DNA from: Clostridiales bacterium | GTDB taxonomy: Bacteria; Bacillota; Clostridia; Christensenellales; DUVY01 | Direction of reading: 5' to 3' | NCBI GenBank assembly: GCA_012840805.1 | Contig: DUVY01000015.1 | Coordinates: 1 to 43,789, forward strand | DNA: 43,789 nucleotides | Part shown: piece after piece, positions 10,504 to 41,661 of the stretch | How the letters are laid out: the number at the start of each line of letters is the position of its first letter | Position numbering within the stretch: position 1 is the first letter of the stretch | Made by a program: the position numbers and the translations under genes | The notes under the pieces: model-generated | Database searches by the model: none | What the model was told of the DNA's origin: nothing | What the model saw: only the letters and a program-made list of their open reading frames with translations

Positions 10504-11535
10504 ATGAAAAAGATTTTGCAAAAAACGCTAGCGCTGATTTTCGCGATAAGCATATTGGGCGGCGTTTTTTACGGATGCGACAGTTGGGCAAATACGGACT
10601 TGAGCTATGTGAGCATAAGAATTAATCCCGAGTTAGAGCTTGTAGTCAATGGCAAGAATAGCATTACAGCTGTCAATACGCTTAACGAAGACGCCGAAAC
10701 TTTGCTCGCGGATGTTTCAATCACGGATATGCCGCTAGAGGACGGCGCGGAATTAATAGTCAAATTGGCGACAGAAGCAGGATTTATTGATGTCGACTCT
10801 GATAACGAAGTGTTTATTGATGTGGTGACCGACGAGGACGACGAAAACCCAAACCAAGAAAGATTAACCAAAAGAGAGCAAATCAGAAAAAAACTGCAAG
10901 AGCGTATTAATAGGTTCTTTGACAACAACGGCATTTTTGGAAGAGTTAGCCAAGAGACTTTAACACAATATCTTGAAGACGCTCAAAATTTAGGCGTTTC
11001 GCCCGGCAAATTAAAATTGATTATGAGAGCGCTTGATCTTAATCCGGATTTGACGCTGGACGATATCAAGGACAAAGAAGTTAAGGAAATTGTCCAATTA
11101 ATCAGGGACAACATAAAAGACGAAGATTTTGGCTATACCGTTAGGCAAGAATATAAGGCAGCAAGGCAACAACTAAAAAATAAATACGCCCATATGTTTG
11201 AGCTACAAAACCAAATAAAAGAATTAAGAGCGCGACTTAATGACTTTGACGGGACGGATTTAGAAAAAGAGCTTTTGGAGCAAGAATTAAATACCAAAGT
11301 TGAAGAACATAAAACGCTCAAAAAGCAATACGAACAAGAAAAGAGCCAATTAAAAGAGCGGTTTAAAGCTCAAGCCAAAGAAGTCAAAGAGACCAAAAAA
11401 AGAGAACTGGAACAGAGAAAGGAGCAATTTAAAAACAAGTTAGAACAGCGCAAACAGGAATTTGAGAAAAACAAAGAACAAATCAAAGAACAAATCAATA
11501 ATTGGAGAAAAAGGCAAAACAAACAAAACAGATAA
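10504..11535 (+). CDS. Lipoprotein with RsgI-like extracytoplasmic domain and long coiled coil
   Basis: This 343-residue product starts with a signal peptide ending in YGC, so Cys 25 is probably lipidated. Residues about 37-105 (YVSIRINPELELVVNG, then VNTLNEDAETLLADV) match the middle, extracytoplasmic domain of RsgI anti-sigma factors, which has the pattern V.(L/I).(I/V)NPS.E..(V/I)N...V..(V/L)...N.(D/E)...(L/I)L. A helical segment with GVSPGKLKLIMRAL (about 165-178) follows. The last 130 residues are a highly charged K/E/Q coiled coil (from about residue 210 to the end). The RsgI N-terminal sigma-binding domain and the membrane helix are missing, so this is not itself a normal anti-sigma factor. 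AGGAGAG precedes the ATG. It sits directly before a broken rsgI locus. Confidence 0.75.
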   Translation: MKKILQKTLALIFAISILGGVFYGCDSWANTDLSYVSIRINPELELVVNGKNSITAVNTLNEDAETLLADVSITDMPLEDGAELIVKLATEAGFIDVDSDNEVFIDVVTDEDDENPNQERLTKREQIRKKLQERINRFFDNNGIFGRVSQETLTQYLEDAQNLGVSPGKLKLIMRALDLNPDLTLDDIKDKEVKEIVQLIRDNIKDEDFGYTVRQEYKAARQQLKNKYAHMFELQNQIKELRARLNDFDGTDLEKELLEQELNTKVEEHKTLKKQYEQEKSQLKERFKAQAKEVKETKKRELEQRKEQFKNKLEQRKQEFEKNKEQIKEQINNWRKRQNKQNR

Positions 11536-11540
11536 AGGTC

Positions 11541-11570
11541 TTGAAGTCAAGAATGGTTTAGGGATATAAT
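11541..11570 (+). promoter_or_regulatory. Strong sigma-A-like promoter before the broken rsgI locus
   Basis: TTGAAG at 11541-11546 and a perfect TATAAT at 11565-11570 are 18 bases apart. An AAGG site and an ATG at 11603 follow. The promoter now leads into a scrambled gene. Confidence 0.45.
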
Positions 11571-11602
11571 TAGCGTATAATAATCTATCCATAAGGTATT
11601 AA

Positions 11603-11743
11603 ATGATTAACAAACATCTGACAAGGTTAAGGCAGGGCGACAACTCTGCCTTGACGGATATGATACAGCACCGCGTCGTCTTCCAACCTGTCCGTTTTAT
11701 CCAAATACTTCTCCAAAAACTTATTGATTACCTGTTCTATTAG
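11603..11743 (+). pseudogene. Possible 5' remnant of a sigma factor or rsgI gene
   Basis: A 46-codon frame follows a good promoter and an AAGG site. Its first 20 residues (NKHLTRLRQGDNSALTDMI) look like the first helix of an ECF-type sigma factor (..L.RLRQGD..AL..). From about residue 22 the frame runs antisense through an RsgI-coding stretch on the other strand and has no meaning there, so at most the first 60 bases or so are original. An ECF-like start directly before an RsgI gene would fit a sigma/anti-sigma operon. The match is short and could be chance. Confidence 0.3.
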
Positions 11744-11956
11744 TTTGCCTTTGGCGCGGTAATCTTCAAAAATCGCTCTAGCGTCTTGATTGATATATTC
11801 TATTGACTTGACTTTTTCAAAATGATTGACCGTTATGGCTATTGACGAATTGATGTCAATAAAAACAGTCATATAATCGGAATTCATATACCCGAAAAAC
11901 GAAACAACGCCGACCGACAAAAATATCAAAACAGCGAAAGCGCTAGCGCAAAACGC
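11627..11956 (-). pseudogene. Central part of an RsgI-like anti-sigma protein, inverted
   Basis: Read on the minus strand, this frame encodes a membrane helix (AFCASAFAVLIFLSVGVV) and then an RsgI middle domain: YMTVFIDINSSIAITVN, a strand KVKSIEYINQDAR and a helix KGKLIEQVINKFLEKYL. It has no start: upstream of the helix the frame meets a stop at 11957-11959, and the cytoplasmic sigma-binding domain is absent. A TTG at 11929 would cut the membrane helix. What looks like the C-terminal part of the same protein lies on the opposite strand from 11957 on, so this block appears to have been inverted relative to its ends. I call it a broken gene. Confidence 0.6.
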
Positions 11957-12115
11957 CTAGACCAACCAAAAGATTGTCTTGTCTGGGTTACCGAGGATCA
12001 ATTGCAAAATATGAGCATTGGAGAATTGAGAAGATTATTAAAAGATTTGAACGACAATAGAGCGGGCGGCGGCAATCAATCAGAAAACGGCGGCAAAGGA
12101 CAGGGCAGGCGTTAA
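11957..12115 (+). pseudogene. C-terminal tail of an RsgI-like protein, plus strand
   Basis: A plus-strand frame ending at TAA 12113-12115 encodes TEDQLQNMSIGELRRLLKDLND followed by a Gly/Asn-rich basic tail. The segment NMSIGELRRLLKDLN aligns by eye with NLGVSPGKLKLIMRALDLN of the RsgI-like lipoprotein just upstream, so it is likely the last helical part of an RsgI-type domain. There is no start with a ribosome binding site; ATG 12011 would give only 34 residues. Together with the inverted block before it, it forms one disrupted gene. Confidence 0.5.
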
Positions 12116-13185: not shown

Positions 13186-14178
13186 TCACCTAAAAGTATC
13201 CCTTATAACCAACTCAAAATCAATTTGGTGTTTTTTTATCGCGTTTTCGCCGCTAAAATATCGGTTTATGTTTTGCGCGGTAAAAATTGAGAGTTTTTCC
13301 ACATTATTTTCCAAACTTGTGAGCGCAGGGTAAAAGCATCTAGAAAGCAACGAATTGTTATACCCTATTATAGATAGTTTTTGGGGCACGGGGATATTGT
13401 TTTTTCGCGCGGCGGACAACGCGCCCGCCGCCAAGACATCGTTAGAACAAACCACGGCGTCTATGGTTAAAGACTTGTAAGATCTCCAAAAAGCGTCCAT
13501 TGCGTCTTCTATATCGGGCGAGCATTTGATAATATATCGCTCGTCCAGATTAAGCGCGCATTCTTTTATGCCCTCGTGATAGCCTTGCAGTTTTTTTTGG
13601 CTGCCGTAAGTGTCCACATCATACATAAACAAGATGTTTTTGCGACCTTTGGTATAGGCTTGAATAACGCAATGTTTAATAGCCTTAAGCTCGTCGCAAA
13701 AAGCGCAGTATATATTTTTATGTTTGATATAGGCGTTAATCAAAAACACAGGCAATTTTTTTGAGGCGCTCAAAATAACATCTTCGGTTTTTCCCGCGAA
13801 AACTGAGCCTATAAAGATTATAGCGTCCACATTTTTGGAGATTAGCATATCGACCGAGTTTTGCCTTACCTCCAAACTCTCGCCCGTGCAGCTTAACAAA
13901 ATATCATAGCCGTATTTTCTAAGTTCGCGTTCCAAAACAGCCACGGCTTTGGCGTAATACATATCCTCTATGTTGTAGCAAACAATGCCGATAAGCTTAA
14001 AAGTAGAGCCCGCCGACAGAGCTTGCGCGGTCTTGTTGGGCGTATAATTGCATTTTTCAATGGCGTCCAAAACGCGCTTTTTGGTGTCCGCGCTTACATA
14101 ACCCGAGTTGTTAATAACTCTGGACACAGTGGTAATTGACACGCCCGCCATTTTGGCGATATCGTATATAGTTGTCAT
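13186..14178 (-). CDS. LacI-family transcriptional regulator
   Basis: This 330-residue DNA-binding regulator has an N-terminal helix-turn-helix of the LacI type (TIYDIAKMAGVSITTVSRVINN) and hinge (YTPNKTAQALS), then a periplasmic-binding-protein-like sugar sensor domain. I start it at ATG 14178, because GGGGGA lies 7 bases upstream; an in-frame start at 14208 would add ten residues outside the domain. It is divergent from kdgA-kdgK with 175 bases between them, and a perfect LacI/CcpA-type palindrome lies in that gap. It most likely controls the ketodeoxygluconate genes, perhaps as a KdgR-type regulator, but the effector is unknown. Confidence 0.92.
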   Translation of the reverse strand: MTTIYDIAKMAGVSITTVSRVINNSGYVSADTKKRVLDAIEKCNYTPNKTAQALSAGSTFKLIGIVCYNIEDMYYAKAVAVLERELRKYGYDILLSCTGESLEVRQNSVDMLISKNVDAIIFIGSVFAGKTEDVILSASKKLPVFLINAYIKHKNIYCAFCDELKAIKHCVIQAYTKGRKNILFMYDVDTYGSQKKLQGYHEGIKECALNLDERYIIKCSPDIEDAMDAFWRSYKSLTIDAVVCSNDVLAAGALSAARKNNIPVPQKLSIIGYNNSLLSRCFYPALTSLENNVEKLSIFTAQNINRYFSGENAIKKHQIDFELVIRDTFR

Positions 14179-14210
14179 TAAAAAATCCCCCAAAGGATTA
14201 AAAAACATTA

Positions 14211-14239
14211 TTGACTAATGTTTTTCGTTGTGTTATCAT
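14211..14239 (+). promoter_or_regulatory. Promoter of kdgA-kdgK
   Basis: TTGACT at 14211-14216 and TATCAT at 14234-14239 have 17 bases between them. The operator palindrome begins 14 bases downstream of the -10 box, at the expected start of transcription. Confidence 0.6.
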
Positions 14240-14253
14240 ATATATAGTATAAG

Positions 14254-14269
14254 ATGAAAGCGCTTTCAT
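14254..14269. promoter_or_regulatory. Perfect LacI-type operator / cre-like palindrome
   Basis: ATGAAAGCGCTTTCAT is a 16-base perfect palindrome. Its core TGAAAGCGCTTTCA is the ideal form of the Bacillota cre site bound by CcpA and of many LacI-family operators (central CG). It sits just downstream of the -10 box of kdgA, where binding would block transcription. The neighbouring divergent LacI regulator is the obvious candidate, with CcpA as the alternative. A weaker half-like site (TGAAAGCATTTTGC) follows about 10 bases later. Confidence 0.75.
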
Positions 14270-14353
14270 GTCAAACTGTGAAAGCATTTTGCTTTTTTCT
14301 TATCTTTGATAAAGAAACGTTTTTTTGAAAATACTTTACTTTAGGAGAATTTA

Positions 14354-14974
14354 ATGAACAAGTCTGTAATCGCTCAAATAGGTCAAGAAAAGCTTTTGCC
14401 TGTGGCTGTTATCCAAAAGCTAGAAGACACGAGCAAGTTGCTAGATGCGATAACCGCTGGCGGGCTTAATGTTATTGAGATTACTTTTAGAACGCAATGC
14501 GCGCCCGAGGCTATAAAGTTTTCGGCTAAAAACTATCCCCAAGTTTTGACGGGCGCGGGCACGGTCGTTAACGCCGACCAAGCCCAAGAAGCTATTGATT
14601 GCGGCGCGAAGTTTATCGTAGGACCGGGCTTTTCGCCCGAAGTCGCCAAAATTTGCCTCCAAAATTCCACGCCGTATTTTCCCGGATGCGTAACGCCTAC
14701 CGAGATAATGGCGGCTTTGGAGTATGGCATAGACATTGTTAAGTTTTTCCCCGCGCAAGAGTTTGGCGGGCTAAAAGCCATAAAAGCCTTAAGCTCGGCG
14801 CTAAAGGATGTAAAATTTATTCCGACAAGCGGGATAAACAATGATAACCTTATTGATTATATACAATACGAAAAAATATTCGCTTGCGGCGGAAGCTGGC
14901 TGTTAAAAGGCTCTTACGAGCAAATTACACAAAACATAAAATCGGCGATAAAAATTGTTAATGGAGGAAAATAA
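14354..14974 (+). CDS. kdgA: KDPG / 2-keto-4-hydroxyglutarate aldolase
   Basis: Cleaves 2-keto-3-deoxy-6-phosphogluconate into pyruvate and glyceraldehyde 3-phosphate, the last step of hexuronate and pectin breakdown. The 206-residue protein is a class I aldolase barrel. The Schiff-base lysine is Lys 130 in the motif IVKFFPAQ, and the catalytic glutamate lies in IEITFRT. Further family motifs are GAGTV, FIVGPGF and FPGCVTPTEI. GGAG stands 8 bases before the ATG. It is the first gene of an operon with kdgK, three bases downstream, and is preceded by a promoter and a cre-like operator. Confidence 0.95.
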   Translation: MNKSVIAQIGQEKLLPVAVIQKLEDTSKLLDAITAGGLNVIEITFRTQCAPEAIKFSAKNYPQVLTGAGTVVNADQAQEAIDCGAKFIVGPGFSPEVAKICLQNSTPYFPGCVTPTEIMAALEYGIDIVKFFPAQEFGGLKAIKALSSALKDVKFIPTSGINNDNLIDYIQYEKIFACGGSWLLKGSYEQITQNIKSAIKIVNGGK

Positions 14975-14977
14975 TAG

Positions 14978-16000
14978 ATGGCAAAAGTTGTGACATTTGG
15001 CGAGATAATGTTAAGATTGGCGCCCGAGGGCTATACCCGTTTTGTTCAGGCGACATCGTTTAACGCGACATACGGCGGCGGCGAGGCAAATGTCGCCGTG
15101 AGCCTTAGCAATTATGGGATAGATACCCAGTTTGTGACCAAATTGCCCCTTAACGAAATAGGACAGGCGGCGGTCAATAATTTGAGGCAATTTGGAGTAG
15201 GAACTGATTTTATAGCGCGCGGCGGCAAAAGAATAGGCATTTATTTTTTGGAAAAAGGCGCGAGCCAGCGTCCTTCTAAGGTTATATACGACAGAGCCGA
15301 TTCGGCGATCGCGCAGGCGACAAGCGCGGACTTTAATTGGGACAAAATTTTTGACGGAGCGGACTGGTTTCATTTTACCGGCATAACCCCGGCGCTCGGT
15401 CCTAATGTCGCCGAGTTGTGTCTAGAAGCTTTAAAAGCGGCCAACAAAAAAGGCATAACGGTATCTTGCGACCTTAACTATCGCAAAAACCTTTGGACAA
15501 GGGAACAAGCCCAAGAGACAATGACCAAATTAATGCCTTATGTCAATGTCTGTATAGCCAACGAAGAAGACGCGGGCGATGTGTTTGGCATCAAGGCGGA
15601 TAAGACAGATATAACCAGCGGAAAATTAGACCAAGAAGGCTATAAGAGCGTTGCCCGTCAGCTTATGGACAAATTCGGGTTTAAGTATGTGGCTATTACC
15701 TTGCGCGGCAGCATATCCGCTAGCGAAAACAACTGGGCTGCTATGCTTTATGACGGAAAAGATTATTATTTTTCTAGAAACTATTTGATAAAGATTGTGG
15801 ATAGAGTGGGCGGCGGCGATAGTTTTGGCGCGGGGCTTATTTATTCGTTGCTTAATAATTACAGTCCTAAAGAAGCAGTGGAGTTTGCCGTTGCAGCAAG
15901 CTGCCTAAAACACACGATTGAGGGCGATCTTAATATGGTTACAGTGGACGAAGTCAAAAGACTAGCTGGCGGCGACGCGAGCGGCAGAGTTCAAAGATAA
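14978..16000 (+). CDS. kdgK: 2-keto-3-deoxygluconate kinase
   Basis: PfkB-family kinase of 340 residues that phosphorylates 2-keto-3-deoxygluconate to the substrate of the aldolase encoded just upstream. The start (VVTFGEIMLRL) and the motif TYGGGEANVAVSL are typical of KdgK. The C-terminal PfkB signature is RVGGGDSFGAG with catalytic Asp 281, and SCDLNYRKNLW is a family landmark. The ribosome binding site GGAGG is formed within the last codons of kdgA. A terminator follows 36 bases after the stop. The pairing with kdgA, a LacI regulator, uronate-gene fragments and a pectate lyase makes the pathway assignment firm. Confidence 0.94.
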   Translation: MAKVVTFGEIMLRLAPEGYTRFVQATSFNATYGGGEANVAVSLSNYGIDTQFVTKLPLNEIGQAAVNNLRQFGVGTDFIARGGKRIGIYFLEKGASQRPSKVIYDRADSAIAQATSADFNWDKIFDGADWFHFTGITPALGPNVAELCLEALKAANKKGITVSCDLNYRKNLWTREQAQETMTKLMPYVNVCIANEEDAGDVFGIKADKTDITSGKLDQEGYKSVARQLMDKFGFKYVAITLRGSISASENNWAAMLYDGKDYYFSRNYLIKIVDRVGGGDSFGAGLIYSLLNNYSPKEAVEFAVAASCLKHTIEGDLNMVTVDEVKRLAGGDASGRVQR

Positions 16001-16035
16001 TTTTTGAAAAAGCAATAAAAATATATAATATATAG

Positions 16036-16069
16036 AAAGGCTGTTTTTTAAGAATAAACAGCCTTTTTT
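16036..16069 (+). terminator. Terminator of the kdgA-kdgK operon
   Basis: AAAGGCTGTTT pairs with AAACAGCCTTT around a 9-base loop, followed by Ts. Confidence 0.88.
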
Positions 16070-16119
16070 AGTTATTCTATGTTGTTAAAAATTATTTATA
16101 TAATTTTAATTTTTTCGCT

Positions 16120-17109
16120 TTACTTAATATCAATCTCAAGATAATTTTTTACATTATGATAGCTAATATTTTTTATAAGGGTTTTGAGATTTTCGGGGTT
16201 ATTAGGGTATTCGACCGCTAAGACGATTTTCGCGATAAAGTTGCATAAAATACGCCTGAAATAATCATGCCTTACATACGAGGTAAAGCTTCTAGAATCC
16301 GTGAGCATGCCTATAAAATTACCCAACACGCTGTATTCGGATATCGAGGTCAAGTGGTCGTAAATACCGTCTTTAGTGTCGTTAAACCACCACGCGCTGC
16401 CGCTTTGGAGCTTGCCTTTAATTCCATCGCCCTGATAACAATTGATTATGGAATTGAGCAGCCTGTTGTCGTTGGGGTCCAAAGAATAAATAATCGTTTT
16501 GGGAAGATTATCCGAGGATTGAAGCTTATCCAAAAACTTTGCAAGACGGTAAGGCTCTTTAGAGCTGTTGATACTGTCATAGCCGGTATCGGGACCAAGT
16601 TTTTTGAACATTGGACTGTTGTTGTCGCGAAGGCTGTTATAATGCAATTGCATCGCTATATTATATTTTTTATAAAGCTTACCCAAATACAGCATCAAAA
16701 AGGTTTTGTATCTTTGGGTTTGGATATCGTCGATTTTTTTACCCTTTAGCGCTTTTTTAAATATTAGAGCCGTTTCCTCAGCCTCGCACTCTTCATAAAT
16801 ATATTCGGGCAAAGCGTGGTCCGAAATCTTGCAGCCGTTTTGGACAAAGTATTCAAGGCGAACTTTGAGCGCCTCCATCAAGTCATTCAACGATTTAATA
16901 TCAATCTCAGCGGCGTTGCCCAAAGTTTGAATATATTCCAAAAACTTTGGCGCATCAATATTAAGAACCTTGTCGGGTCTGAAAGAGGGCAATACCCTAA
17001 AACCCAAGTTTTGTTCATTCGCCAATTGTTTATGCGCCCGCAAATCGTCCGCGGGGTCGTCCGTAGTGCATATTAATTGGACATTGGATTTTCTTATAAT
17101 ATTACGAGC
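16120..17109 (-). pseudogene. uxaC: Glucuronate isomerase, 3' fragment (5' third missing)
   Basis: Read on the minus strand, about 329 residues of UxaC are present, from ARNIIRKSNVQLICTTDDP to the normal C-terminus. UxaC isomerises glucuronate and galacturonate to fructuronate and tagaturonate; the full protein is about 465 residues. Family landmarks kept are CTTDDP, FRPDKV, MQLHYNSLRDNN and GKLQSGSAWWFNDTKDG. The first 135 or so residues, including the N-terminal metal-binding HCH region, are absent. The open frame continues to 17268 only because it runs antisense through kduD, and those extra 53 residues are meaningless. The fragment abuts a kduD fragment on the other strand. It is not expected to be active. 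Confidence 0.88.
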
Positions 17110-17593
17110 CGGAATAATCAGGCGCGAGGACTCTTTGGATTTTTCCGAAAAGAACTGGGACGATGTCATAAACATCAATCTAAAAGCCGTATTCTTTTTG
17201 GCGCAAGCGGTAGCCAAGCAGTTTGTAAAACAAAAAAGCGGCGGAAAAATCATTAATATCGCGAGCATGTTAAGCTTCCAAGGCGGGATAAGGGTGCCCA
17301 GCTATACGGCGGCAAAAAGCGGCGTCAGGGGCATAACTATGACGCTTGCTAACGAATGGGCAAAATATGGCATTAATGTAAACGCGATAGCGCCCGGGTA
17401 TATGGCAACCAATAACACAAAAGCGCTAAGAGCGGACAAAAAACGCAACCAAGAGATTTTGGACAGGATTCCCGCGGGACGATGGGGCATACTGGACGAT
17501 TTGGTAGGCGCGGCAATATTTTTGGCAAGCCGAGCGAGCGATTATGTAAACGGCTATACGCTGGCGGTGGACGGCGGGTGGCTGGCAAGATAA
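17108..17593 (+). pseudogene. kduD: 2-dehydro-3-deoxy-D-gluconate 5-dehydrogenase, 3' fragment
   Basis: From AGIIRRED on, about 161 residues match the second part of KduD, a short-chain dehydrogenase that links pectin-derived keto sugars to 2-keto-3-deoxygluconate. Visible landmarks are the end of NNAG (only AG left), NIASMLSFQGGIRVPSYTAAKSG with the catalytic Tyr and Lys, NVNAIAPGYMATNNT, RIPAGRWG and the family C-terminus DYVNGYTLAVDGGWLAR. The N-terminal Rossmann half with the NAD-binding glycines is missing, so the product cannot work. The frame reads open further upstream to 16970 only because it runs antisense through uxaC. No promoter or ribosome binding site belongs to it. Confidence 0.9.
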
Positions 17594-17880: not shown

Positions 17881-20800
17881 ATGAGAAGAAAGCTAATTTC
17901 TTTATCTAGAAGGGTAATGGCGTTGTTGGCCGTGATTGCCCTTGGACTAGGTTGTTTTGGCGGAAGCATAATCGCTTTAAAGTCTGTGTATGCCGATACG
18001 ACCGAATTTATTTTTAATGCCAACGATTTAGCAGCAGGGTCTTACACCGAGCCTTTTACAACTGGAACAAACAATTACTTTACTGTATTGGCGACATCGG
18101 ATAAAAAAGTGGACGTTGATGCCAATGCCAAAAGCCATCCCGATTTCCCGGGCGGGTCTTTTACTCAACGGCTTAAATTAGGCGGCACAGGCAATAAAAA
18201 CGAGAGAGCTGTAAAATTTACCACGACATCGGAAGGCAGCATTGAGGTTTATGCGCAATCAGGAAGCAGTAGCGCAGATAGACCTCTAGTTTTAGACTCA
18301 GACGCAGGCGGAGTTTTAGGTGAAGAAATAGCGCTAGGAGGAGCATTGACTAAATTATCATATGTTCTTCCTGAAGCGGATACTTACTATTTATATAGCA
18401 AATCCAGCGGCATTAATATTTATGGTATTGTCGTAAGAGAGGGCGAATATCAGCCGCCCGAGCGTCCCGATTGGAGCGAAGTCGCCGACCCTGTTTTAGG
18501 AACGCCTTTGGTTGAAGGGGACAAAATAACGGTACCTTTTACAATGGTATTGGGACAGGAAGGCGCCGATAGCGTCACCATAGAAATGTTCGCCGACTCG
18601 GAAGGTCAACAAAAGGTTGACGAAAAATCCACTATAAGCGCCTCTAGCGTTACTTTTACGCCTGTGGCATCGGGAGAATATTGGTTTAAGATATCCGCGA
18701 TGCGCGAGGGCGAAGAAGAAATCAAAGAAAGCGATATTGAAGGGTCTGTGGAATTTAACTTGCCTCTTAAAAGCCCTACCGTAGCCGCGCGCGCGATAAT
18801 AGACGCCCAAGACAGCAAGTTTGAGATAAAATTTGGTCATGTTCTCGAGGCAGAGGTCTATAGCGTATTTTACGCGAAAGTAGGCGAAGACTATCCCGAA
18901 GACGCTTTCGTGGATTATGAACCCGAACAAGTCCAGAGCGATTATAGCGTTATAACCGACGCTTTAGAGGCCGATACCGAATATAAGATTAAGGTAGTTG
19001 TCAGCGCGGATAATGTTTTTGGCGAAGGCGCGCGGACTAATGAAACCGAAATAGTAAAATTAGCGCGCGACTTTGAGGAATACTTCTGGCAGCATGTTTA
19101 TTTTGGAAGCTCCACAACCGTCAATGACGCAAACAACAAAATTACGGGCGATCCATATAGCGACGAAGGCGTCAATATTTTAAGCTGGAACGGCAAGGGC
19201 AAACTTCAAAGCGGCGGCGCCGACGGATTGGCGTTTTTGTACACGCCCGTGCCCAAAGACAAAAACTTTGTCTTGAGCGCCAACATCCATGTCAACAAAT
19301 GGAGAAAATCCAACGCCCAAGAAGGCTTTATAGTAATGGCGCGCGACGCCGAACCTGAAAACGGCACTCATAACCAATATAGCAACAGCTATGGCTTTAT
19401 TGTCAGCAAGGTTGAGTTCTATTACGACACCGAGGACGAAAAAGTGTCCGATGTAGGCGACGCCAAGATTACCATGAGATTGGGAATAGGCACTCGCGCG
19501 GTTTACGGAATTGAAGAGACAACGGGCATTGACCCTAGCAAACTTGTCGAGACAATAAAACCTCTTGAAAGTTCCCATGGCGTTTACGGACCAGGCGAAT
19601 ACAATGTAATCGGCAATTGGGACACCTCGGATCCAGGTTCTTTACCTGTTGATATGGGCGGACCTTATTATACGGACTTTGATGTGACATTAAAACGCGA
19701 TAATGACGGATTCCATGTTATCTATAAAGACGAAGAAGGCGAGATTATAGCGCAAGACACTATGTGGAATTGGGAAGACTTATTTGTATTGGATGAAGAC
19801 TATGTCTATGTGGGATTTGCGGCTGCTAGATGGATGGATATACAAGTTACCAATATTGAATTTGAGCATCGCGACCCCGCGGATGATCCGCCCGCACAAG
19901 GCAGACCTATAGAAAAAGTTACTCCGATATATAACATTACTAGTTCCAGTCAAACAAACACCCGCGATTATAAGCTGAGATTTAACGCTAACGCGGACGG
20001 AACGCTTGTTGTAAAAGACGGCGAAACGGTATTAAAAGAAAATGTCGCCATAAAAGCTTTGGACGAAGCTGTTGTGCCTATTGAGATGACCAGAGACAAT
20101 ATGCTTCTTACCGTTATTTTCACGCCGGACAAAAACTATAAGCCTGATGAATATAGCGAAATGGCAAATTATAATGTCGCGACTTTCAGTCATCCTGTTA
20201 CCTATCGCAGATACGGAACGCCCAGCCAGTATATTTATGTAACGCCCAACGGCGCCGCTGATGGCAATGGCTCAAAAGAAAAGCCTTTGGATGTTCAATC
20301 GGCGTTTAACTACGCCCAACCCGGTCAGACCATTGTATTGGCAGGCGGAAAGTATAGCTTTACGGGACAGCTTAAGATTGCCCGCGACCATGACGGCGCG
20401 GAGGATAAGCCCATAGCCGTAATGCCCGATCCCAACGCGACTCAAAGACCGGTATTTGACTTTGGCAAGGTGGGAAGCGGTCTAGTGCATTGGGGTAATT
20501 ATTGGGTATTTAGAGGCTTTGACGTAACCAATACCGCAAGCCCGCAAAAAGGCATTCAAATTGCCGGAAGCTATAATAAGATTATAGAAGTCAATACCTA
20601 TAACAACGGCAATACCGGCATACAAATAAGCGGCGTGTCCACCGAAACCATTGACAAATGGCCCGCTTATAATCAGGTGATTAATTGCACCTCTTACAAT
20701 AACGCCGACAACGGCTATGAAGACGCCGACGGATTCGCGGCGAAACTTACTTGCGGTCCTGGCAATGTGTTTGACGGCTGTATCGCTTATAACAACGCGG

Positions 20801-21930
20801 ACGACGGCTGGGATTTGTACGCTAAGATACAAACAGGCCCTATCGGCGTTGTAACAATCAAAAACTGTATCGCTTACAGCAACGGATATTTGAGCGACGG
20901 CACTAACGCCGGCAACGGCAACGGCTTTAAGCTCGGCGGAACAAGTCTCATACCTTGCACGGATTGGGAATATGATGAAGACAATAATCGTGTATATACA
21001 AATGGTCAGCATGAGCTTATCAATTCCATAGCCTATAACAACAAGGCAAAGGGCATAGACAGCAACTCATGTCCTGCCATAAAAGTTGTCAACTGCACAT
21101 CCTATAACAACGGCTCTTATAACGTGGCGTTTTATACGCACGCGGGCAATACCAACTTTGAGGCGACGGGAATCATTTCGTTTAAGCAACTAGAAGAAGA
21201 TTGGAACGGCGTTGACGATGGCTTTGACGCGGCCAAAGTCGCGATAGGCGAGCAGCTCAAGCCCAGCAATCAAGACAACACCAAGTTCCAAAATGAGACC
21301 AACTTCTATTGGGACGGAACACAGTCCTCCAACGGAACTGACCAAATTACGGAGGATGATTTTGTGTCGCTTGATACTTCAATCGCGCCTATCAGAAAGG
21401 CGGACGGCACGATTGATGTGCAGGGTCTGTTGCAGCTTAAGCCCGAAAAGATTGATGATTTTGATGATGAAGTTCCTGGCGCTGACTTTACGACGGGCTT
21501 GACCGCTACGCCCCAAGCTCCCGCTCTAGGCAACGCGATTGAGGGCATTGAGCCTACGCTTGAATTTAGCGTAGAAGTATTGCCAAAAGGCGTTGTTAAC
21601 AAGAAATATATTATACCTATAGTTGCCGAAGACAACGCGACCCCGAAAGAAGATCTGGTCTTTGTGATAAAAGTTCAAGACATTTATGGAAGGGAATATG
21701 AAGTTGATTATGAAGACTTGAGCTTTATCCCGACAGAAGCGGGCGCCTATACCATAAGGATAACTGTTATTGACCTAGACGGCAATGAAGCGTTCCTTAT
21801 GACTGATATAGAGGTTGAGGCAGCTGTCGCTGAAGAAAAAGGATGCAAAGGCTGCTCAAAGGAAAACGGCGCTTCCATAATTATAGTTATGGTCGCATTG
21901 CTAGGCTCTCTTGTTATAAAGAAAAAATAA
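17881..21930 (+). CDS. Secreted multidomain pectate lyase, family PL9
   Basis: This 1349-residue protein has a signal peptide (to about residue 38, VYA-DT) and a beta-rich N-terminal module (40-185). Two fibronectin-III-like modules (about 200-395) and a lectin/laminin-G-like module (about 395-665) follow. A right-handed beta-helix spans about 780-1180, then an Ig-like module (1235-1320) and a hydrophobic end with KKK. The beta-helix matches Pel9A-type lyases: DGFAAKL with Asp 950, DDGWD with Asp 974, 975 and 978 as calcium ligands, and NGFKLGG with Lys 1017 as catalytic base. The spacing 950-974-978 equals 209-233-237 of Pel9A as I remember it. It would cut polygalacturonate by beta-elimination at the cell surface. 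AGGGAGGG precedes the ATG. Confidence 0.9.
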   Translation: MRRKLISLSRRVMALLAVIALGLGCFGGSIIALKSVYADTTEFIFNANDLAAGSYTEPFTTGTNNYFTVLATSDKKVDVDANAKSHPDFPGGSFTQRLKLGGTGNKNERAVKFTTTSEGSIEVYAQSGSSSADRPLVLDSDAGGVLGEEIALGGALTKLSYVLPEADTYYLYSKSSGINIYGIVVREGEYQPPERPDWSEVADPVLGTPLVEGDKITVPFTMVLGQEGADSVTIEMFADSEGQQKVDEKSTISASSVTFTPVASGEYWFKISAMREGEEEIKESDIEGSVEFNLPLKSPTVAARAIIDAQDSKFEIKFGHVLEAEVYSVFYAKVGEDYPEDAFVDYEPEQVQSDYSVITDALEADTEYKIKVVVSADNVFGEGARTNETEIVKLARDFEEYFWQHVYFGSSTTVNDANNKITGDPYSDEGVNILSWNGKGKLQSGGADGLAFLYTPVPKDKNFVLSANIHVNKWRKSNAQEGFIVMARDAEPENGTHNQYSNSYGFIVSKVEFYYDTEDEKVSDVGDAKITMRLGIGTRAVYGIEETTGIDPSKLVETIKPLESSHGVYGPGEYNVIGNWDTSDPGSLPVDMGGPYYTDFDVTLKRDNDGFHVIYKDEEGEIIAQDTMWNWEDLFVLDEDYVYVGFAAARWMDIQVTNIEFEHRDPADDPPAQGRPIEKVTPIYNITSSSQTNTRDYKLRFNANADGTLVVKDGETVLKENVAIKALDEAVVPIEMTRDNMLLTVIFTPDKNYKPDEYSEMANYNVATFSHPVTYRRYGTPSQYIYVTPNGAADGNGSKEKPLDVQSAFNYAQPGQTIVLAGGKYSFTGQLKIARDHDGAEDKPIAVMPDPNATQRPVFDFGKVGSGLVHWGNYWVFRGFDVTNTASPQKGIQIAGSYNKIIEVNTYNNGNTGIQISGVSTETIDKWPAYNQVINCTSYNNADNGYEDADGFAAKLTCGPGNVFDGCIAYNNADDGWDLYAKIQTGPIGVVTIKNCIAYSNGYLSDGTNAGNGNGFKLGGTSLIPCTDWEYDEDNNRVYTNGQHELINSIAYNNKAKGIDSNSCPAIKVVNCTSYNNGSYNVAFYTHAGNTNFEATGIISFKQLEEDWNGVDDGFDAAKVAIGEQLKPSNQDNTKFQNETNFYWDGTQSSNGTDQITEDDFVSLDTSIAPIRKADGTIDVQGLLQLKPEKIDDFDDEVPGADFTTGLTATPQAPALGNAIEGIEPTLEFSVEVLPKGVVNKKYIIPIVAEDNATPKEDLVFVIKVQDIYGREYEVDYEDLSFIPTEAGAYTIRITVIDLDGNEAFLMTDIEVEAAVAEEKGCKGCSKENGASIIIVMVALLGSLVIKKK

Positions 21931-39819: not shown

Positions 39820-41661
39820 ATGCAAGAATATAAAAAGGATTATTTAAAAACTAATTATAACAAGATAATCGTATTTTGTTTAATTTTATTTTTTGGTATT
39901 GGTTTGTTATTTTCTTCTAATATTTTGAAAGAGGAAGTAAAAGCATTTTATCCATCTTCGCCAGATGAAGTTATATTAACTTTAAATGGTGATATGTTGA
40001 CGCCTAGCGGTCCTGCTGTAAGTAATCCTGGACATATAACTTGGTATTATTATCGTGTCCCTTATTTTGTAACCAATAATGATTTTTCGAATGAAGCTAT
40101 TGTTAGGTATCAAGAAAGAATTAAAAAGTTTGAAGAGAATGAGATAAAAGCAATAAATTTAAATGATTTTACTTGGGAAGCAAACACGGTTTATACTTTG
40201 TGGTTGTTTGGTAATATTTGGGACGATAATTCCGTATTTATTTCAAATCTTATTTATTATGTTCCTGGCAGGACGGTAAGTAATGAGCCAATTAATACGC
40301 CTGGATATTCTTATAAACTTTCTGATAAGCCTAAGGGTTCAAATGATGATCTTACTATAGATGGCAATATAGTTACTATAACGGGTAATTCAATAGCGGG
40401 CGATTTAAAGATTTCTTATTTTAGTGGTGTTGATAATACTTTCGGAACTTTGGCGGTTGGACATGTTGATGATGTTGACGTTAATGTATCTATTGATTTA
40501 AGTTATCTTCCTTTGGCTCAATATACGGCATATAAGGTATATTTTGAAGGTTTGGATTATTATAGTAACCCTGTTGTAATGCCAGAATGGATATATAGTA
40601 TATCTCCTATGTTGCCTTTACCGACAGCACCTCAAAAAGAAGGATATACTTTTGTTGGTTGGTATTATGATGAGGAATATACACAGCCTTATATTGACGG
40701 AACTCCGATTTTTGAAGATACGACTTTGTATGCTAAATACGAAATTAATACATATACTGTAACTTATATTTTAAATGGTGATACCTATAGAATTGATGCA
40801 GTTACGTATAATTCTTACGCACAGAATTTCGAAATATCTCAAACAGGTTATACTTTTAGCGGTTGGCATACTGATGCTGAATGTGAAAATCCATACGATT
40901 TTAATATCCCTGTAAAATCCCATTTAACCTTATACGGCAGAAATATTATAAATAAATATACTGTTACTTTTGACGCAAACGGCGGTATCGTAAAAAGTGG
41001 AAACGCTGTGCAAATTGTTGAATATGGCAAGCCTGCTGTTGCTCCCATTGTGGAAAGAGAAGGTTATACCTTTAAAGGTTGGGATAAAGTATTTAATAAT
41101 ATCACTAACGATTTAACCGTAATTGCTTTATGGGAAATCAATAAATATAAGGTTACTTTTGATGCTAATGGCGGAATTATAAAAAGCGGTGACGCTGTGC
41201 AAACCGTTGAATATGGCAATTCTGCTATTGCGCCTGTTGTCGAAAGGATTGGATATAATTTCAAAGGTTGGGATAAGTCGTTTAGTAGTATTACTGGCGA
41301 TTTAACCGTAACAGCACAATGGGAAATTATTACTTTTAAAGTTACTTTTATAGTTGATGGTGTTGAATACGATACAATAACTATTGAATACGGCACGATG
41401 TTTTATGAGAATAAAAGCGTTCAAGAGATTTTGGGAACTTTATCTGCTGTGTATTCTGATGCTCAAAAGACATCCTTGTTTATGCCTACAAGCGCTATAA
41501 ACGAAGATATAACGCTTTTTGCCGAAGTTGATGCATCATTGCGTGGTTGGCTTGATTTCGCTTTGTGGTTTCAAAAGTATTGGATGTGGCTTGCAATTGG
41601 TGCGGGTGTTTTGGCTTTGGTCATAACTGTCGTTGTAATCAAGGTTAAAGGGGGTAAATAA
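39820..41661 (+). CDS. Secreted, membrane-anchored protein with Listeria-Bacteroides repeats (adsorption-protein candidate)
   Basis: This 613-residue protein has a signal-type helix at about 15-38, a globular part (45-265), and a run of InlB-type B-repeats (about 266-530) with the GYTF.GW..D and VTFDANGG patterns. Two nearly identical 63-residue units are residues 378-440 and 441-503. A C-terminal membrane helix (about 585-608) follows, ending in KVKGGK. The layout (signal peptide, receptor-like modules, C-terminal anchor, placed before an anchored partner and a pI-type ATPase) is that of the pIII adsorption protein of filamentous phages. B-repeats in bacteria sit in adhesins, so binding a cell-surface target is plausible. 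AGGAGG stands before the ATG. Confidence 0.75.
   Translation: MQEYKKDYLKTNYNKIIVFCLILFFGIGLLFSSNILKEEVKAFYPSSPDEVILTLNGDMLTPSGPAVSNPGHITWYYYRVPYFVTNNDFSNEAIVRYQERIKKFEENEIKAINLNDFTWEANTVYTLWLFGNIWDDNSVFISNLIYYVPGRTVSNEPINTPGYSYKLSDKPKGSNDDLTIDGNIVTITGNSIAGDLKISYFSGVDNTFGTLAVGHVDDVDVNVSIDLSYLPLAQYTAYKVYFEGLDYYSNPVVMPEWIYSISPMLPLPTAPQKEGYTFVGWYYDEEYTQPYIDGTPIFEDTTLYAKYEINTYTVTYILNGDTYRIDAVTYNSYAQNFEISQTGYTFSGWHTDAECENPYDFNIPVKSHLTLYGRNIINKYTVTFDANGGIVKSGNAVQIVEYGKPAVAPIVEREGYTFKGWDKVFNNITNDLTVIALWEINKYKVTFDANGGIIKSGDAVQTVEYGNSAIAPVVERIGYNFKGWDKSFSSITGDLTVTAQWEIITFKVTFIVDGVEYDTITIEYGTMFYENKSVQEILGTLSAVYSDAQKTSLFMPTSAINEDITLFAEVDASLRGWLDFALWFQKYWMWLAIGAGVLALVITVVVIKVKGGK

Follow-up and report, generated by a model that had tools for sequence, protein, structure and literature searches.

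A probable deletion-inversion-deletion scar of an ECF sigma factor/RsgI-like anti-sigma operon in a Clostridiales genome

The closest described systems are the SigI/RsgI pairs of Bacillus subtilis and Clostridium thermocellum. In these, a sigma factor gene is followed by the gene of a membrane anti-sigma factor with the RsgI central domain (PF23750), an order shared with the operon described below. RsgI1 to RsgI6 of C. thermocellum are reported to consist of three parts, the C-terminal one being a carbohydrate-binding module (PMC4711584).

The locus studied here lies at positions 11603-12115 of a window of 43,789 nucleotides, the whole stretch of DNA that was analysed (contig DUVY01000015.1 of assembly GCA_012840805.1). 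Elsewhere, the window encodes a LacI regulator, a KDPG aldolase, a PfkB kinase and a glucuronate isomerase (13186-17593), which look like a uronate-degradation cluster, and an adjoining Pel9A-like beta-helix protein of 1349 aa (17881-21930). A 613-aa protein with four List_Bact_rpt (Flg_new) repeats is located at 39820-41661.

The intact operon of a relative

A DNA search was run on G000, the genome of the window, and on 40 relatives, 41 genomes in all. Matches to the locus were present in three: G000 itself, G002 and G007. The two matches in G007 were 36-38 bases long (E 8.5e-4) and covered only the ribokinase promoter side. G002 belongs to the same genus; its matches to the sigma part and to the core of the locus are on different strands when compared with the window. 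Contig C10 of G002 (CALAYY010000010.1) preserves the ancestral order: a pyruvate kinase gene is followed by lipoprotein, sigma factor and rsgI genes on one strand and then by ligD. The three products are an RsgI_M-domain lipoprotein of 419 aa, an ECF sigma factor of 174 aa and an RsgI-like anti-sigma factor of 327 aa. The sigma factor matched Sigma70_r2 and Sigma70_r4 and passes the ECF model TIGR02937. The intact sigma/RsgI pair that the preliminary description had proposed to look for was thus found, with both genes on one strand. The operon adjoins the same pyruvate kinase gene as the window locus.

The colinear order of sigma factor and RsgI_M protein is the norm, since a sigma-like open reading frame was located directly upstream and on the same strand in 12 of 21 RsgI_M loci of relatives, the G002 locus included. 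These loci (L016-L036, RsgI_M-type matches) were examined with flanks of 1.5 kb for stop-to-stop frames of at least 60 aa; within this stretch, the remaining nine had no sigma-like frame. One of the twelve, L022, is a weak case (E 5.8e-4).

The first gene of the operon is intact in the window. Positions 10504-11535 (plus strand) encode a protein of 343 aa with an RsgI_M domain (PF23750, 2e-23), a signal helix and a conserved cysteine, probably a lipoprotein. It shares 55% identical amino acids with its ortholog, the product of the first operon gene (G002:C10:2861-3853), and was absent from the preliminary description. The lipoprotein persists in the window genome without its sigma and anti-sigma partners. 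Such probable lipoproteins were seen in two placements, before the sigma/RsgI pair in G002 and after it in JAQVME010000096.1 (L010, 3911-4933).

Three pieces of one gene pair in the window

Downstream of the lipoprotein gene, a putative sigma-A-like promoter (11541-11570, plus strand; TTGAAG-18-TATAAT, hexamers assigned by eye) precedes the first leftover piece. Its -10 end falls within the stretch alignable with G002 (DNA alignment 11549-11667). The piece itself, 11603-11667 on the plus strand, is the 5' remnant of the ECF sigma factor gene, about 21 of 174 codons, identified by protein and DNA alignment. It encodes MINKHLTRLRQGDNSALTDM, which aligned with residues 1-20 of the G002 sigma factor at a score that none of 1000 shuffles reached; the ECF-sigma-like start proposed earlier is thereby borne out. 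The DNA alignment, extending from the promoter region to 11667, scored 112 against a shuffle maximum of 41.5. Here and below, DNA maxima were taken from 200 shuffles and protein comparisons from 1000.

The second piece is the inverted core of rsgI at 11668-11958 (minus strand), which comprises the transmembrane helix and the first part of RsgI_M, corresponding to G002 residues ~48-146. The minus-strand translation of 11630-11950 matched positions 1-59 of the Pfam RsgI_M profile, which has 133 (2.8e-13). The core is 41-42% identical to residues 50-136 of the G002 RsgI protein, and 0 of 1000 shuffles scored as high. Both results agree with the antisense helix and middle domain noticed previously. 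The DNA score on the minus strand was 143.5 (shuffle maximum 43.5); on the plus strand it was no better than chance, 30.5 against a maximum of 46. The idea that the lipoprotein gene upstream had been copied to give the core was rejected: the core scored 225 with the G002 RsgI protein and 66 with the lipoprotein.

The third piece, 11959-12115 on the plus strand, is the 3' remnant of rsgI and encodes the C-terminal tail. Homology at the protein level is recognisable at 11996-12076. The plus-strand tail had been part of the earlier reading and is retained as its weakest piece: the alignment with G002 RsgI residues 294-320 scored 57, the best of 1000 shuffles 53. DNA scores were 36.5 on the plus strand (shuffle maximum 39) and 34 on the minus strand (maximum 31). 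With the plus-strand DNA score below the shuffle maximum, the support for the tail comes from the protein level and not from the DNA level.

The left junction falls within about 11658-11696 and the right one within about 11958-11996; the breakpoints given before, 11.66 and 11.96 kb, are close to these. The plus-strand frame of the tail ends at 12115; an open frame on the minus strand covers 11627-11929. The three pieces come from one sigma-rsgI pair and do not overlap: they represent its start, its reversed middle and its end, in that order. From the sigma ATG to the rsgI stop, G002 has 1505 bp and the window 513 bp. By the lengths in G002, ~990 bp are missing, from both sides of the inverted block. 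The N-terminal domain of RsgI was indeed lost, as had been suggested, but the loss is not confined to it; most of the sigma factor gene and the middle of rsgI are gone as well. A functional SigI/RsgI-type pair requires a sigma factor with regions 2 and 4, of which ~21 codons are left, and an anti-sigma factor with N-domain, helix and full RsgI_M, of which the window keeps a frameshifted core ending at position 59 of the profile.

The frameshift is due to a one-base deletion at approximately 11935-11936 (minus strand), between RRFALALS and AVLIFL. Upstream of GTTTTG, which served as anchor, a one-base shift is needed to align the core with G002, and 19 of 26 positions are then identical; in 12 other registers tested for the same stretch, at most 11 of 26 were identical. 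Therefore, one base was lost within the helix coding region. The palindrome GCGCTAGCGC at 11940-11949, to which attention had been drawn because it lies by the right breakpoint, is real, but it is coding sequence, the Ala-Leu codons of the FALALS stretch in the membrane helix. The window holds 64 perfect 10-nt palindromes including this one. Their number and the conserved helix codons led to its rejection as a recombination site.

Origin of the scar

The locus is best explained as a dead unit of an ECF sigma factor and an RsgI-like anti-sigma factor, scarred by deletion-inversion-deletion, and we consider this reading probable. The intact counterpart in G002 stands beside the same pyruvate kinase gene, and the lesions (loss, inversion and one-base deletion) are inactivating. 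Of the three options offered in the preliminary description, the small inversion with loss gains support from the intact same-strand operon of this relative; the switchable segment is disfavoured and the chimera is less likely. The ancestral unit would have consisted of the ECF sigma gene and the gene of the RsgI-like membrane anti-sigma factor, downstream of the lipoprotein gene. The rearrangement would have taken out most of the sigma factor gene and the first ~47 codons of rsgI, inverted about 290 bp of rsgI and deleted ~145 further codons ahead of the C-terminal tail. The scar is presumably present in the living genome and now presumably without function.

Deletion, inversion and deletion would result in one step from a single template-switching replication event. 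The scar may have been formed in this way rather than in several steps; stepwise deletion and inversion is equally allowed as a route. The end of the sigma alignment (11667) overlaps the possible core end (11658-11696), which would leave room for microhomology.

A search for inverted repeats or for a recombinase that might have caused the inversion found neither. This bears on the earlier suggestion of a switchable segment, a 300-bp block flipped by a recombinase that would turn a gene on or off. With some breakpoints, flipping the block joins sigma start, core and tail in one open frame of 170 aa, and 106 of 598 tested flips brought sigma start and core into one frame. However, sigma start and tail share a frame by chance in about one of three cases, and the breakpoints are free to choose. 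No exact inverted repeat of at least 6 bp connects 11635-11694 with 11930-11989 (random pairs average 5.9), and the break regions are not linked by any of the inverted repeats listed, which were the 25 longest. A dedicated invertase is also missing: the 94%-complete genome has no serine recombinase above the Pfam cut-off, and its one tyrosine recombinase is encoded on another contig (C105). The inverted block is frameshifted, and the flipped product would have neither regions 2 and 4 of the sigma factor nor the N-domain of the anti-sigma factor. A switch is thus extremely improbable.

The antisense frame might instead encode a working membrane microprotein of 100 codons (11627-11929, minus strand). 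It is open for ~109 codons and holds the membrane helix and part of the RsgI_M domain. This, too, is very unlikely. Its first codon, a TTG, lies within the helix and has no ribosome-binding site evident by eye; the frame ends in antisense sigma sequence and includes 59 of 133 RsgI_M positions. G001, the other genome of the genus, and G002 are without such an antisense arrangement. Conserved separate reading frames, the mark of independent genes, were likewise not found in these relatives; G002 has the intact order and G001 lacks the locus.

The three pieces could also have been brought together from an intact sigma-rsgI locus by an error of assembly or amplification, in which case the real genome has a working operon. 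Junctions that combine deletion and inversion are typical of chimeras from multiple-displacement amplification. The scar junctions rest on one assembly, and the window genome, 94% complete, is split over 231 contigs. A second head-to-head truncation junction is present ~5 kb away in the same contig, near 17,105 (17078-17118). There, uxaC (16120-17268, minus strand) faces a short-chain dehydrogenase gene (16970-17593, plus strand). Both are N-terminally truncated, with uxaC matching its profile from position 138 of 464 and the dehydrogenase from 70 of 236. This junction is either a second rearrangement or a misassembly, and it makes a fault of assembly or amplification in this contig more likely. 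On the other hand, the one-base deletion in the core points to decay and not to a join. The genes flanking the scar are neighbours in G001 also, and neither the core nor RsgI_M was found a second time in the assembly.

For a measure of how common such joins are in the window genome, frames from 17 stretches of its relatives G001 and G002 (209,638 bases) were mapped to a sample of 247,505 bases, made up of 14 stretches of that genome and the window. The stretches were chosen mainly around sigma factor and other already located genes, not at random. Among 259 frames of the relatives with at least 100 aa, 142 had a best match of at least 45%. Two of these were split on the same strand and none onto opposite strands; this test misses the rsgI locus itself and any join of two different genes. 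At a threshold of at least 40%, 146 frames were mapped and four were covered to less than 70%: RsgI to 26% and the others to 53%, 66% (at a stretch end) and 69%. rsgI was thus the only grossly truncated frame. As the split test cannot see the rsgI locus, the coverage test is the only fair comparison. It makes a genome-wide artefact unlikely; a local artefact is possible. Taken together, we regard a chimeric origin of the scar as quite unlikely.

Loss within the genus and comparison with known systems

Three genomes of the genus were compared: G002 has the operon, the window genome the scar and G001 nothing. In G001, the pyruvate kinase gene is located 264 bp from ribokinase, and ligD lies beyond ribokinase, as in G002. 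Searches of G001 for the lipoprotein, RsgI and the sigma factor gave no match to any of them. The locus content therefore represents one intact genome, one with a scar and one without the operon. The G001 spacer held no convincing remnants; the best candidate was 45 bp with 75.6% identity to the G002 stretch beside pyruvate kinase. The ribokinase match in G001 (L038, G001:C89:3181-4092) was reported with one internal TAA.

With the G002 sigma factor as query, no relative was detected in the window genome or in G001 at E <= 1, and three places were found in G002. Six Sigma70_r2 genes are left in the window genome. One is SigH-like, below NCBI's cut-off for that model, one is SigK, and the other four are open frames of 244-360 aa. 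In a profile search of this genome, RsgI_M scored above the cut-off only in the lipoprotein and the remnant.

The locus reads as an operon caught midway through loss. A more extended scenario has one template-switching event creating the scar, the orphaned lipoprotein gaining a sigma-independent role and the genus displaying the intact, half lost and fully lost states; as a whole it is tentative and rather unlikely. If real, the locus would provide a within-genus series of ECF sigma/anti-sigma loss (intact, scrambled, gone) and a small bacterial example of deletion-inversion-deletion. Whether the conserved RsgI_M lipoprotein, left without its partners, depends on them would thereby become testable. 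Views on how sigma/RsgI systems work are unchanged; this is an ordinary but readable case of a gene pair dying.

Compared with SigI/RsgI, the G002 sigma factor differs by being ECF-like (Sigma70_r2/r4, TIGR02937), and its anti-sigma factor is without a match to the RsgI N-terminal family or a carbohydrate-binding module. Recombinase-driven phase-variable inversions likewise involve a short stretch of internal DNA that is turned around. In contrast to them, the window locus lacks inverted repeats and a nearby recombinase, and its block is frameshifted. A literature search for deletion-inversion-deletion or template-switch inversions in bacteria found no relevant description. As in bacterial pseudogenes, one species shows truncation, a frameshift and loss where a relative has kept the gene. 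Unlike them, the remnant has an inverted internal piece between deletions, which is less usual than plain deletion.
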